Of a DNA stretch of 23,704 nt, positions 9,832-14,066 are shown one piece after another. Made by a program: the position numbers and the translations under genes. Position 1 is the first letter of the stretch. Every line of letters starts with the position of its first letter. The notes under the pieces are model-generated. The model was not told the DNA's origin. It was given only the letters and a program-made list of their open reading frames with translations, and made no database searches. The DNA comes from a virus. Location of the stretch: IMG/VR virus record IMGVR_UViG_3300023184_000520, positions 1 through 23,704 of that record. The stretch is one strand, 5' to 3'.

Positions 9832-10902
9832 ATGATAAATTTTCCTTCTTCACCAATTTTAAATCAAACATATTCCTACAACAATTTAAGTTGGCAATGG
9901 AATGGTTCCGCATGGGTTGTATATAGTGCACCTTTAGGTATAAATGCAGCAACTGGTGGAACATATTCTAGTTTAACAGGTGTAATAACTCTTTCAGGTA
10001 CTGGTACTTTAGGTACAATATCTGGAATAACCGCTGGAGGTGGTGGTACTACATTTACTGGTGGAACCGTAACTGGCCCAACAAGATTTACCAATGGTTT
10101 AACAGCAAATACATTTAGTGCCACAACATATTTAGGGTTACCTAAAGACATATATGTAACTGGTGGAACTTATTCTTCAGGAACAGCTACGTTTAAAAAT
10201 AATTCAGGTGGAACATTTAATGTGACAGGATTTAGTACTGGTGGTGGTGGTGCGATACAAGTTTTAGATGAAGGTTTACCAATAACTTCTAATTTGGTAT
10301 CTATGAATTTTGCTGGTGCTGGTGTTACTGCAACTTCTGATGGTTTTGATAATGTTACAGTAACAATTCCTGGTAGTACTCCAAGTACCCCATGTACTAC
10401 GACATTAATTGCATCAAGTTCTGCAAATTATAGTAATATACCCTTAGGAGCTGACCAATATCAAGTTGGTGATAGTAGATGTGGTTGGAATGGATGTGAA
10501 CTTGATGTTGTTTTTATTGCTGGTGACGCAATAGACCTACCACAAATAAATTGTGGTATTCCTTTTCCTATGGATGTAACTACAGGTGATAAAATTACTC
10601 TTTGTGGTATGGCTTATTGTGCTGATTCAGTAGATGGAAATAAGTTTTATACTATGATGGAAACATTTTCATGTGCTGGATTTCTTGATAATCAAATTAA
10701 TGCTAATGTATTGACTTCAGAAAATTTTGATACGTTTAGTCATAACTATGTATGTTTTTCTAGAAGTTATACACTAGTAGAAGGAGAAAAATATGATGCA
10801 TGTAATAATTTTATTACCGTAGGATTTAGAAATGAAATTGAAAGTACAGCACCTGTTGTTTTAACATGGACACTTAATATACAAAGAGGTTGTAAAGCAT
10901 AA
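9832..10902 (+). CDS. Tail fibre protein with Cys-rich C-terminal domain
   Basis: A 356-aa protein starting 3 nt after the giant fibre gene, probably cotranscribed with it. Residues 1-32 (NFPSSPILNQTYSYNN, then WQWNGSAWVVYS) are a short N-terminal motif common in phage tail proteins. Residues ~74-137 repeat the module found near the N-terminus of the giant fibre (FTGGTVTGPTRF, GLTANTFSATTY, then KDIYVTGGTYSSGT). Residues ~141-180 (VLDEGLPITSNLVSMNFAG onwards) are another recurring tail-fibre segment. The last ~170 residues hold ten cysteines (188, 217, 222, 241, 258, 263, 281, 308, 324 and 354), unlike the other fibres here. That domain may be a disulphide- or metal-stabilised receptor-binding tip, which I did not recognise. 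The shared module suggests both fibres assemble on related parts. Confidence 0.75.
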   Translation: MINFPSSPILNQTYSYNNLSWQWNGSAWVVYSAPLGINAATGGTYSSLTGVITLSGTGTLGTISGITAGGGGTTFTGGTVTGPTRFTNGLTANTFSATTYLGLPKDIYVTGGTYSSGTATFKNNSGGTFNVTGFSTGGGGAIQVLDEGLPITSNLVSMNFAGAGVTATSDGFDNVTVTIPGSTPSTPCTTTLIASSSANYSNIPLGADQYQVGDSRCGWNGCELDVVFIAGDAIDLPQINCGIPFPMDVTTGDKITLCGMAYCADSVDGNKFYTMMETFSCAGFLDNQINANVLTSENFDTFSHNYVCFSRSYTLVEGEKYDACNNFITVGFRNEIESTAPVVLTWTLNIQRGCKA

Positions 10903-10903
10903 T

Positions 10904-11053
10904 CTATTCACCATATAAATCTTTTTTAGGTGTACATTTCTCTTTAATAAGCCTCTCCACAAAAGCAAACATTTTTAAACCATTTTCTTCACAATACTTT
11001 TTTAATAGTTCATGTGTGGTTGGTGTTATTTTAAGGTTTTTATCTCTTTTCAT
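10904..11053 (-). CDS. Small ribbon-helix-helix-like DNA-binding protein
   Basis: A 49-aa ORF reading leftward from the ATG at 11053 to a TAG ending 1 nt from the end of the fibre gene. The protein is MKRDKNLKITPTTHELLKKY, followed by CEENGLKMFAFVERLIKEKC and a short tail ending LYGE. A beta-like KNLKITPT strand, a helix (HELLKKYCEENG) and a second helix (KMFAFVERLIKEK) are the layout of Arc/MetJ-type ribbon-helix-helix regulators, which are often about 50 residues and bind palindromic operators as dimers. A host-type promoter and three AGTATG/CATACT half-sites lie just upstream, so autoregulation is plausible. The gene is in an otherwise rightward late region. Function is inferred from fold pattern only. 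Confidence 0.7.
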   Translation of the reverse strand: MKRDKNLKITPTTHELLKKYCEENGLKMFAFVERLIKEKCTPKKDLYGE

Positions 11054-11069
11054 ATTCTTTTATCTGATA

Positions 11070-11100
11070 AGTATGTCAAAAGTATGTTTTTTTTCATACT
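11070..11100. promoter_or_regulatory. AGTATG half-site cluster, candidate operator
   Basis: AGTATG occurs at 11070-11075 and 11081-11086, 11 bp apart (one helical turn), and its inverse CATACT at 11095-11100. The last two form a 6-bp inverted repeat around eight T residues. The middle copy overlaps the -7 box of the 49-aa ribbon-helix-helix-like gene, as an autoregulatory operator would. Confidence 0.5.
11077..11084 (-). promoter_or_regulatory. Bacteroidota-type -7 box TACTTTTG
   Basis: Read leftward, TACTTTTG matches the Bacteroidota TAnnTTTG -7 consensus 23 nt before the ATG at 11053. The -33 region is weak (TTTC at about N20 rather than TTTG at N19). This suggests reading by host RNA polymerase. 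Confidence 0.5.
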
Positions 11101-11147
11101 AAAAGAAATTATTATTATGTTTAGATATCTCTTTTGAAAAAAACTGA

Positions 11148-11156
11148 ATATTTATA
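11148..11156 (+). promoter_or_regulatory. Late-promoter-like motif ATATTTATA, tail sheath
   Basis: ATATTTATA lies 48 nt before the sheath ATG, the longest leader among the plus-strand genes. The leader is A-rich with no Shine-Dalgarno sequence. The sheath must be made in high amounts, and the longer leader may matter for this. Confidence 0.55.
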
Positions 11157-11204
11157 ATAAAGAATAGAATAAAGTAATAATAACAAAAATAAAAACAAAA
11201 CAAC

Positions 11205-14066
11205 ATGTCACAAAATGTATTCGTAAGTCCTGGTGTTTATACCTCAGAAAAAGACATTTCATTCATCACTCGTCAAGTTGGTGTAACAACTCTTGGATTA
11301 GTAGGTGAGACAACAATTGGACCAGCTTTCCAACCAATATTCATCACTAATTATGGTGAATTCCAATCTTTCTTTGGTGGTCAAAACGCTACTAAAGTAA
11401 AAGATACTGGTGCTCCACAATATGAGTTACCTTATATTGCAAAATCATATTTATCACAAGCAAATCAATTATTTGTAACTAGAATATTAGGTTTTTCTGG
11501 TTATAAAGCTGGTTTTGCATGGGGTATTGCTTTAGATGCTAATATGGACCCTGCAACTAGTGGTACTTCATCAGTAGCAACTACAGCAACAACATTATTT
11601 AATTTTACAGCAACAACTGGTTCAAATAGTGTAATAACAAATTTAGTAAGTACTGATACAATCTTACAAACTCTTTGGAATAAAGGTTTATTAACAACAT
11701 CATTAGGGGTATTAGGTAATCAATCTACTGGTACTACTGGTAGTGTTCCACAATTAATGTATAAAACAACCAATGGAATTAATTTTACAGGTGAATCATT
11801 TACTTATACGTTAGTTAATAAAGGAACTAATCTTGCTGGTTTAATTACTGGTAGAACTAGTGGAGTAACAATTAGTTATTCAGGTACTTCTTATACTGAT
11901 GTTAATAATCAAATTGTTGGTTTATTACGTTCTAGAGGTAGTATAAATTCTGCAACTCAATTACCAGCTTTTGAAGTAACAGCTTCAACACAAGTTATAT
12001 TTGACCCAGCATATTCAGGTGCAACTGAAGACCCAATGGGAGATTTTTCTTTGAGTGGTTTTTCAACTCTTCAAGGTAATTTTGATTATACTTTATCTTT
12101 AGATAGTACTAAAATGAATTATTTACCTAGAGTTTTAGGTAGAAGTGCTCAAGATGGTAAAACAGCTTTGTTTTTAGAAGAATTTTTCCCTAATATGTTT
12201 GCTGATGCAATGAATATGGGTAAAGTAAGAGGTATTAAACAATTTCCAATTTATTATAGTAATAAATTTGAAGAATATCGTAAAGAATACCAACCAGCTG
12301 AAACACCTTATGTTGTTTCTGAGTTACGTGGTAATAAAGTATTAAGACTTTTCAGATTTATCACTATTTCAGATGGTAATGCAGCAAATGAACAATTTAA
12401 AGTTTCTATTGTTAATATTAAACCAGATGCTAAAGAATTTGACGTATTGGTTAGAGCTTTTTATGATACTGATGCTCAACCAACAATTTTAGAACAATTT
12501 AGCCGTTGTACAATGGACCCTAATTCAGCTAACTTTATTGGTAGAAGAATTGGTACATTAGATGGTTTATATATGTCAAAATCAAATTATATACTTGTTG
12601 AATTAGATGAAGAATCTGATACTTCAGAAGCATTCCCAGCAGGTTTTGTTGGTTATCCAATCCGTGATTACCAAGCAAATGCTCAAACTAGTGTTATTGA
12701 CCCAGTTATGACATTTAAAACAAAATATGGTGAATTTGAAAATAAACGTAAATTCTTTTTAGGTCTTTCTGAAACTGAAGGCATTGATTCTGATTTCTTT
12801 GATTACAAAGGTAAACCAATAGTAGGTTCATCATATTTTGAATGGACTGGTTTAACTTCAGGATTCCACATGGATATTGATGCTTCAGGTGTTACTATTG
12901 ATGATGTTGTTATGCCATTAGGAACTGGTGGTACTTATAATCCAATATTTGAATTCCAAACAGGTGATTGGGAATTTAGAACAGATGCTGGTTTAGTGGG
13001 TGGACCATATGAAAAAATATTTGCTCGTAAATTCACATTTGCACCTTATGGTGGATTTGATGGATGGGATATCTATAGAACAAGAAGAAGTAATACTGAT
13101 AATTTTATAATTAATGGTCAAGCTGGTATTGCTGGTCTTGGTGATAAAGTTAATGGTGCGTTTACACAGATGTCTTTGAAAAATGGTGATTTAGCTATTA
13201 ATTCTGATTATTATGCTTATTTAGAAGCTATTTACACATTCCAAAACCCAGAAGCGGTAAATATTAATGTATTTGCTACACCAGGTATTGATACATGGGA
13301 TAATACAAATTTAGTTGAAGCTGCAATTGAAATGGTTGAACAAGATAGAGCAGATTCACTTTATATAGTTACAACTCCAGATTATGGAAATGGTGGTGAA
13401 TTATCAGTACAAGAAGCTGTAGATATTATGGATGGTAACTACGATAGTAACTATACATGTACTTATTGGCCATGGATTCAAATTAATGACACTGAAAACA
13501 ATGTATTAATTTATGTTCCACCAACAAGAGATGTCGTAAGAAACATTGCGTTAACTGACAATATTGCATTCCCATGGTTTGCAGCTGCAGGTATCCAACG
13601 TGGGGATGTTGATGCTATTAAAGCTCGTAAAAAACTTACTCTTTCTGATAGAGATAATTTATACGAAAATAGAATTAACCCTATTGCAACATTTACAAGT
13701 GATGGTATTAAAATTTGGGGTAACAAAACTCTTCAAGTTAAAGAATCAGCTCTTAACCGTATCAACGTTAGAAGACTTTTATTACAAGCAAGAAAACTTA
13801 TTTCTGCTGTATCTATCAGACTTCTTTTCGAACAAAATGATTCAGTTGTTAGAAACCAATTCTTAGGACTTGTTAACCCAATCTTAGATAACATTAGAAC
13901 TGAAAGAGGTCTTACAGACTTTAGAGTGGTGCTTTCAAACAGCCCAGAAGATATTGATAGAAATCAATTAACTGGACAAATATTCTTGAAACCAACACGT
14001 GCTTTAGAATTTATTCAATTAGAATTTGTGATTATGAACACTGGTGCATCTTTCACAAACATCTAA
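11205..14066 (+). CDS. Contractile tail sheath protein (T4 gp18-like)
   Basis: A 953-aa protein that polymerises around the tail tube and contracts to drive injection. The N-terminus (FVSPGVYTSEKDISFITRQV, then TLGLVGETTIGPAFQP and a YGEFQSFFGG segment) is typical of T4-like sheaths. The C-terminal ~120 residues (WGNKTLQ, INVRRLLLQARKLI, FLGLVNPILDNIRTERGL, and an FRVVLSNSPEDIDRNQL strand pair) are the conserved sheath core that forms the inter-subunit mesh. At 953 residues it is far longer than T4 gp18 (659). The extra length includes a Thr/Ser-rich region around residues 115-270 and further mid-protein insertions that probably face outward. It is monocistronic, between its own promoter-like motif and a strong terminator. 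The ATG at 11205 is chosen because it begins the conserved N-terminal motif. Confident call. Confidence 0.95.
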   Translation: MSQNVFVSPGVYTSEKDISFITRQVGVTTLGLVGETTIGPAFQPIFITNYGEFQSFFGGQNATKVKDTGAPQYELPYIAKSYLSQANQLFVTRILGFSGYKAGFAWGIALDANMDPATSGTSSVATTATTLFNFTATTGSNSVITNLVSTDTILQTLWNKGLLTTSLGVLGNQSTGTTGSVPQLMYKTTNGINFTGESFTYTLVNKGTNLAGLITGRTSGVTISYSGTSYTDVNNQIVGLLRSRGSINSATQLPAFEVTASTQVIFDPAYSGATEDPMGDFSLSGFSTLQGNFDYTLSLDSTKMNYLPRVLGRSAQDGKTALFLEEFFPNMFADAMNMGKVRGIKQFPIYYSNKFEEYRKEYQPAETPYVVSELRGNKVLRLFRFITISDGNAANEQFKVSIVNIKPDAKEFDVLVRAFYDTDAQPTILEQFSRCTMDPNSANFIGRRIGTLDGLYMSKSNYILVELDEESDTSEAFPAGFVGYPIRDYQANAQTSVIDPVMTFKTKYGEFENKRKFFLGLSETEGIDSDFFDYKGKPIVGSSYFEWTGLTSGFHMDIDASGVTIDDVVMPLGTGGTYNPIFEFQTGDWEFRTDAGLVGGPYEKIFARKFTFAPYGGFDGWDIYRTRRSNTDNFIINGQAGIAGLGDKVNGAFTQMSLKNGDLAINSDYYAYLEAIYTFQNPEAVNINVFATPGIDTWDNTNLVEAAIEMVEQDRADSLYIVTTPDYGNGGELSVQEAVDIMDGNYDSNYTCTYWPWIQINDTENNVLIYVPPTRDVVRNIALTDNIAFPWFAAAGIQRGDVDAIKARKKLTLSDRDNLYENRINPIATFTSDGIKIWGNKTLQVKESALNRINVRRLLLQARKLISAVSIRLLFEQNDSVVRNQFLGLVNPILDNIRTERGLTDFRVVLSNSPEDIDRNQLTGQIFLKPTRALEFIQLEFVIMNTGASFTNI

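Follow-up and report, generated by a model that had tools for sequence, protein, structure and literature searches.

The viral record IMGVR_UViG_3300023184_000520, a 23.7-kb piece of an uncultivated phage genome that was analyzed over its whole length (the window, 23,704 nucleotides), encodes a predicted Arc-like ribbon-helix-helix (RHH) protein of 49 amino acids, and among relatives the candidate operator of this protein keeps a constant spacing, in helical phase, to the promoter motif of the divergent tail sheath gene. Judged from sequence, this tie between a sheath promoter and an Arc-type regulator is unexpected and strongly constrained. On balance, the protein appears to be a dual regulator, acting as an autorepressor and, from upstream, as a probable activator of the sheath gene.

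Profile searches with Pfam and PHROGs identified tail genes in the window (sheath, tail tube, and baseplate). The RHH gene occupies positions 10904-11053 on the minus strand (MKRDKNLKITPTTHELLKKYCEENGLKMFAFVERLIKEKCTPKKDLYGE), and its extent and ATG start agreed with the original prediction to the base. Relatives of the 49-aa protein were encoded in 388 IMG/VR stretches when a single query was used and in 409 when an alignment was used. The best 80 of these 388-409 relatives were full length with 80-96% identity to the protein, and in 80/80 of them the RHH gene was divergent from a tail sheath gene. A search among named phages returned zero matches. One relative (L082) was located within a contig of the Prochlorococcus single-cell assembly AG-409-L21, which may represent contamination, an attached virus, or an infection. 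The pooled pN/pS was approximately 0.13 for the RHH gene against 0.40 for the sheath gene, both values being rough because synonymous sites are close to saturation in the two genes. The relatives and the pN/pS indicate that the open reading frame is a real gene under purifying selection. Further RHH paralogues were sought in the contigs, where a single copy was found in each; the two exceptions were G013, with the tandem remnant of a fusion, and G016, with a match at chance level. The RHH gene appeared broken in L178, which has shorter homopolymers than L167, and this was set aside as a probable assembly error.

The earlier description of the product as RHH-like was supported by matches to two PHROGs, both Arc-like repressors (phrog_582, E=3.1e-4; phrog_3180, E=4.8e-4), and by a helix-helix prediction. 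The phrog_582 profile was matched by 24/24 diverse aligned family members, and the best Pfam score of the 49-aa protein, to RepB-RCR_reg (E=0.0012), was under the cut-off of that family. A phmmer comparison with Arc gave a weak alignment (E=0.41) in which N6 and K8 were opposite N11 and R13, which are base-contacting residues of Arc. Residues K5, N6, K8, I9, and T10 were invariant in the family, the nuclease-fused copy included. An AlphaFold2 monomer model with a pLDDT of about 70 contained helices at 11-24 and 27-39 (11-23 and 28-39 in a second prediction) and a bridge residue at most for the strand, with no confident ribbon. A Foldseek search against the PDB returned no RHH match and was uninformative for a monomer of 49 aa. 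Matches to SUMO in the PDB were discarded as a chance likeness over 15 residues. Given the pLDDT of the model and the Foldseek result, the fold assignment rests on the sequence profiles, by which the protein is a putative Arc-like RHH DNA-binding protein. Its inter-helix loop is G-x-K; the corresponding loop of RelB has been described as G-x-[S/T/N] (PMC2812701), and the difference is a point against the proposed reading.

Upstream of the RHH gene, a conserved operator of three half-sites was identified at 11070-11100, reading AGTATG-N8-CATACT-N5-CATACT on the gene strand. On the minus strand, the inverted half-site 1 reads AGTATG (11095-11100), and half-sites 2 (11081-11086) and 3 (11070-11075) both read CATACT. 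These are the CATACT and the two AGTATG copies, with starts 11 bp apart, that had been predicted, and each was confirmed at its position. The 11-bp register of half-sites 2 and 3, about one helical turn as had been proposed, was conserved in relatives. Three half-sites in 36 bp or a direct N5 pair occurred in 0/300 shuffles of the window under a dinucleotide model. At least 17/18 half-site bases were matched in 48/60 distinct upstream regions, and the information per base among 57 distinct sequences was 1.67 bits in the half-sites, 1.10 in the spacers, and 0.75 and 0.69 in the flanks, with an extended half-site consensus of TCATACT[T/A]. The L032/L049/L081 group had a rearranged version of the operator, and L012 an additional repeat in the 11-bp register.

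The operator also followed the gene in its distribution. Relatives that keep the gene were checked for missing half-sites, and nearly all of them retain the operator, which left the original prediction standing. In L179 and L180 the sheath gene was present, both the RHH gene and the operator were absent, and the usual place of the RHH gene was empty; since these contigs cover 12.5 and 64 kb of incomplete genomes, the complete phages may still have the gene. The idea that more sites exist in the genome was pursued in 15 large contigs of up to 368 kb, and the search returned one good operator site per contig. A genome-wide regulon was rejected, as additional sites with two mismatches in these 15 contigs did not outnumber those of a reversed-pattern control. 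Conserved together, jointly absent, and present once per genome, the gene and the site support the pairing that had been suggested, in which this is the candidate operator of the 49-aa protein itself. Avoidance of AGTATG was considered and rejected: the window contained 7 copies against 16 expected, yet the loci contained 140 against 153 (Markov expectation). An Rfam search of the window for an RNA element gave zero matches.

A motif shared by many genes of these loci was identified as a candidate promoter. The motif ATATTTAT occurred on the sense strand upstream of 93/186 ORFs of at least 120 aa, with approximately 5 expected, and its reverse complement occurred upstream of 14 of the same ORFs against 9 expected. 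The T4-type late motif TATAAATA was found 20 times on the sense strand against approximately 9 expected, leaving ATATTTAT as the enriched motif. It is probably the late promoter motif of the phage group, and this putative late motif differs from TATAAATA of T4. In the window, sense-strand copies of ATATTTAT were located 10-60 nt upstream of late genes at positions 1869, 11205, 14148, 14915, 17624, 18960, and 20569.

A near-copy of this motif, ATACTTAT (ATAcTTAT), lies over half-site 3 at 11067-11074 on the minus strand and probably serves the RHH gene as a promoter element. In 49/60 regions, ATA[CT]TTAT was found no more than 40 nt from the RHH start, and an exact ATATTTAT was found at such a distance in L008, L032, L049, L080, L081, L167, L168, and L178. 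Because ATAcTTAT overlaps half-site 3 in most loci, the operator would cover the probable promoter of the RHH gene itself. The half-sites had earlier been thought to overlap a -7 box (the Bacteroidota type, TAnnTTTG), which did not hold among relatives: an intact TACTTTTG was present in the 40 nt next to the start in 21/60, and 18 had TACTTTTA. A search for sigma-70-like promoters at 10850-11260 gave no clear excess over shuffles. Additionally, L040, L042, L043, L045, and L059 carry an insertion of about 110-150 nt with AAATCAAATTTACCCCTATA repeats in the RHH leader, between the operator and the RHH gene.

The tail sheath gene, of 953 aa, is encoded at 11205-14066 on the plus strand (Phage_sheath_1; phrog_23, E=1e-57). 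Its ATATTTAT late motif (11148-11155, plus strand) is 47 bp from the operator and is closely preceded by a conserved CTTTTGAAAAAAA / CTTTTGAAAAA block (11131-11143, plus strand); a similar block is also found in L179, a contig without the operator. The distance from the operator to the sheath ATATTTAT was 47 bp in 47/54 distinct segments and 46-48 bp in 52/54. The exceptions were 58 bp in L051 (+11) and 37 bp in L032/L049 (-10), each a shift of approximately one helical turn and together coming from few lineages (two), and 44 bp in L178, a contig with homopolymer errors. The spacer itself was near random, with a median identity of 0.42 over 24 variable positions against 0.35 expected. The operator-to-RHH-gene distance ranged from 15 to 501 nt, and the sheath leader length from 37 to 52. 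Since the distance to the sheath promoter is fixed and helically phased in relatives, the operator probably controls both genes, which strengthens the earlier suggestion that the sheath gene is perhaps regulated as well.

A phased site some 50-75 bp upstream of a promoter core is a classic position for an upstream activator, and this position together with the fixed, phased distance led to the model of autorepression combined with sheath activation. A small Arc-like RHH repressor would probably be made late in infection, and its dimers would bind the three half-sites cooperatively in the RHH/sheath intergenic region. With half-site 3 over the late-type promoter element of the RHH gene, binding would stop RHH synthesis. 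The same complex would be held on a fixed helix face, 47 bp ahead of the late motif of the sheath gene (about -60 to -90 from the presumed sheath start if ATATTTAT is the -10 element), and from there it would probably activate or time sheath transcription. We infer that the 49-aa protein binds and represses its own gene and that its effect on the sheath promoter is positive, the sign being a matter of judgement; a constraint unrelated to activation could also account for the constant spacing.

The same spacing bears on the alternatives. A regulator that represses its own gene only, as an orphan Arc- or CopG-type protein for which the adjacent sheath gene is incidental, would agree with the overlap of half-site 3 and the RHH promoter element, with the single operator per genome, and with the generally stable order of phage structural genes. 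However, the operator lies anywhere from 15 to 501 nt away from the RHH gene, whereas its separation from the late motif of the sheath gene is constant apart from the helical-turn exceptions, and insertions are tolerated on the RHH side only, so that we consider this account unlikely. Most known RHH proteins are repressors, and the same anatomy would allow repression of both promoters, where sheath synthesis would also be delayed or capped, for example through DNA bending or polymerase trapping. The phasing would also fit a looped or wrapped complex, but the sheath motif is left uncovered, with the operator 47 bp away on its upstream side, and we give this possibility rather little weight. A free-standing antitoxin that serves counter-defence by neutralizing a toxin of the host, and whose autoregulation through the operator is a side effect, is highly improbable: RHH antitoxins do autoregulate (PMC4803016) and several antitoxin-like genes are described for moraphages (PMC12619734), but an adjacent toxin gene is absent, the divergent neighbor is the sheath gene in all loci, the 3' side has no small partner (in the window, a convergent tail gene of 356 aa ends at 10902), the approximately 10 residues after the RHH core leave scant space for a toxin-binding tail, and the strict sheath linkage and phased spacing would stay unexplained.

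Several relatives of the predicted dual regulator have an additional gene at the same locus. Genes encoding a GIY-YIG nuclease domain followed by an RHH copy at the C-terminus were found in the stretch that separates half-site 3 from the start of the RHH gene in L163 (860-1324, minus strand), L165 (=L166; 876-1325, minus strand), and L011, and a remnant of such a fusion gene was found in L159 (1129-1290, minus strand). The match to PF01541 was over the cut-off for the L165 protein (E=6.4e-5) and just below it for the L163 protein (E=2.7e-4). The strand KNLKIT was identical in the fused RHH copy, and the remaining sequence had drifted. A truncated fusion remnant was retained in L003/L004, and L025, when read by eye, resembles a deletion scar of the fusion gene. 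Other GIY-YIG relatives had different tails and were located elsewhere, the RHH fusion being found only in the gap between the operator and the RHH gene. A homing endonuclease apparently copied the DNA-binding domain of the phage regulator. The insertion splits the operator from the RHH gene and leaves the operator-sheath promoter unit whole. We tentatively suggest, as a possibility that falls short of being probable, a dual switch (autorepressor and class-I-like sheath activator) joined by a GIY-YIG nuclease whose captured RHH domain is aimed at the operator while the operator-sheath unit is spared. The theme of a nuclease with a DNA-binding repressor has precedents, as T4 I-TevI is both a GIY-YIG homing endonuclease and a late-promoter autorepressor (PMC2988022), and CcdA/HicB-like antitoxins (RHH-type) are described beside Pac-I-like homing endonucleases in moraphages (PMC12619734). 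A nuclease fused to the domain of a neighboring repressor was not found in a limited literature search. In L179, a different endonuclease-like gene of the ICPIHGEFEQSP type is located leftwards from about 1347 (minus strand), next to the sheath gene, where the RHH gene would otherwise stand.

Gene content provided an indication of the lineage. The histone H1-like Hc1 (PF07432) was present in 8/8 large contigs with the RHH gene, which are relatives and not the 23.7-kb window (those holding L012, L018, L020, L022, L024, L073, L077, and L078), and in 1/14 control genomes, a Bacteroides. According to PMC12619734, an H1-like Hc1 gene is reported in four complete moraphages, moraphages are large aquatic phages with Bacteroidota as predicted hosts, and HSP70 occurs in only some of them; HSP70 was sought in 11 contigs of relatives and was not found. 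As Hc1 is common to the large contigs and rare in the controls, the phage group is likely moraphage or close kin, and the hosts of these large uncultivated phages are probably Bacteroidota.

Late transcription in large Bacteroidota phages has, to our knowledge, been little studied. The locus offers a specific, testable regulator-operator pair linked to one structural gene. It also provides a motif that may be the late promoter of the entire group, and its spacing variants amount to a natural experiment. Should the operator be bound by the fusion nuclease as well, this would directly exemplify a homing endonuclease that is aimed by the phage's own repressor.

Among known systems, moraphages resemble this group in being large phages of aquatic origin that are predicted to infect Bacteroidota and that carry Hc1 (PMC12619734), the kinship here being drawn from gene content; the accessible text of that report has no mention of an RHH gene linked to the sheath, and the term 'ribbon-helix-helix' was not found there. 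The fusion genes of L163, L165/L166, and L011 resemble I-TevI of T4 in combining a nuclease with a DNA-binding domain near an operator and a late-type promoter that overlap each other. In contrast to I-TevI, the fusion has as its DNA-binding part an RHH domain with homology to the neighboring regulator, the gene is free-standing, and the nuclease is a predicted one. The 49-aa protein itself is most readily compared with P22 Arc, of 53 aa, which is similar in size and has N and R where the 49-aa protein has N and K, at strand positions that contact bases in Arc. The predicted beta-helix-helix order, the short half-sites spaced by one helical turn, and the expected autoregulation also agree with Arc. 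The protein differs from P22 Arc and the Arc-like repressors phrog_582 and phrog_3180 in the phage lineage, the late-type promoter, the strict association of its gene with a tail sheath gene, the G-x-K loop, and the three half-sites that are phased to a second promoter. The system would appear, by these comparisons, to be Arc-type regulation in a new form, tied to the promoter of the tail sheath gene.
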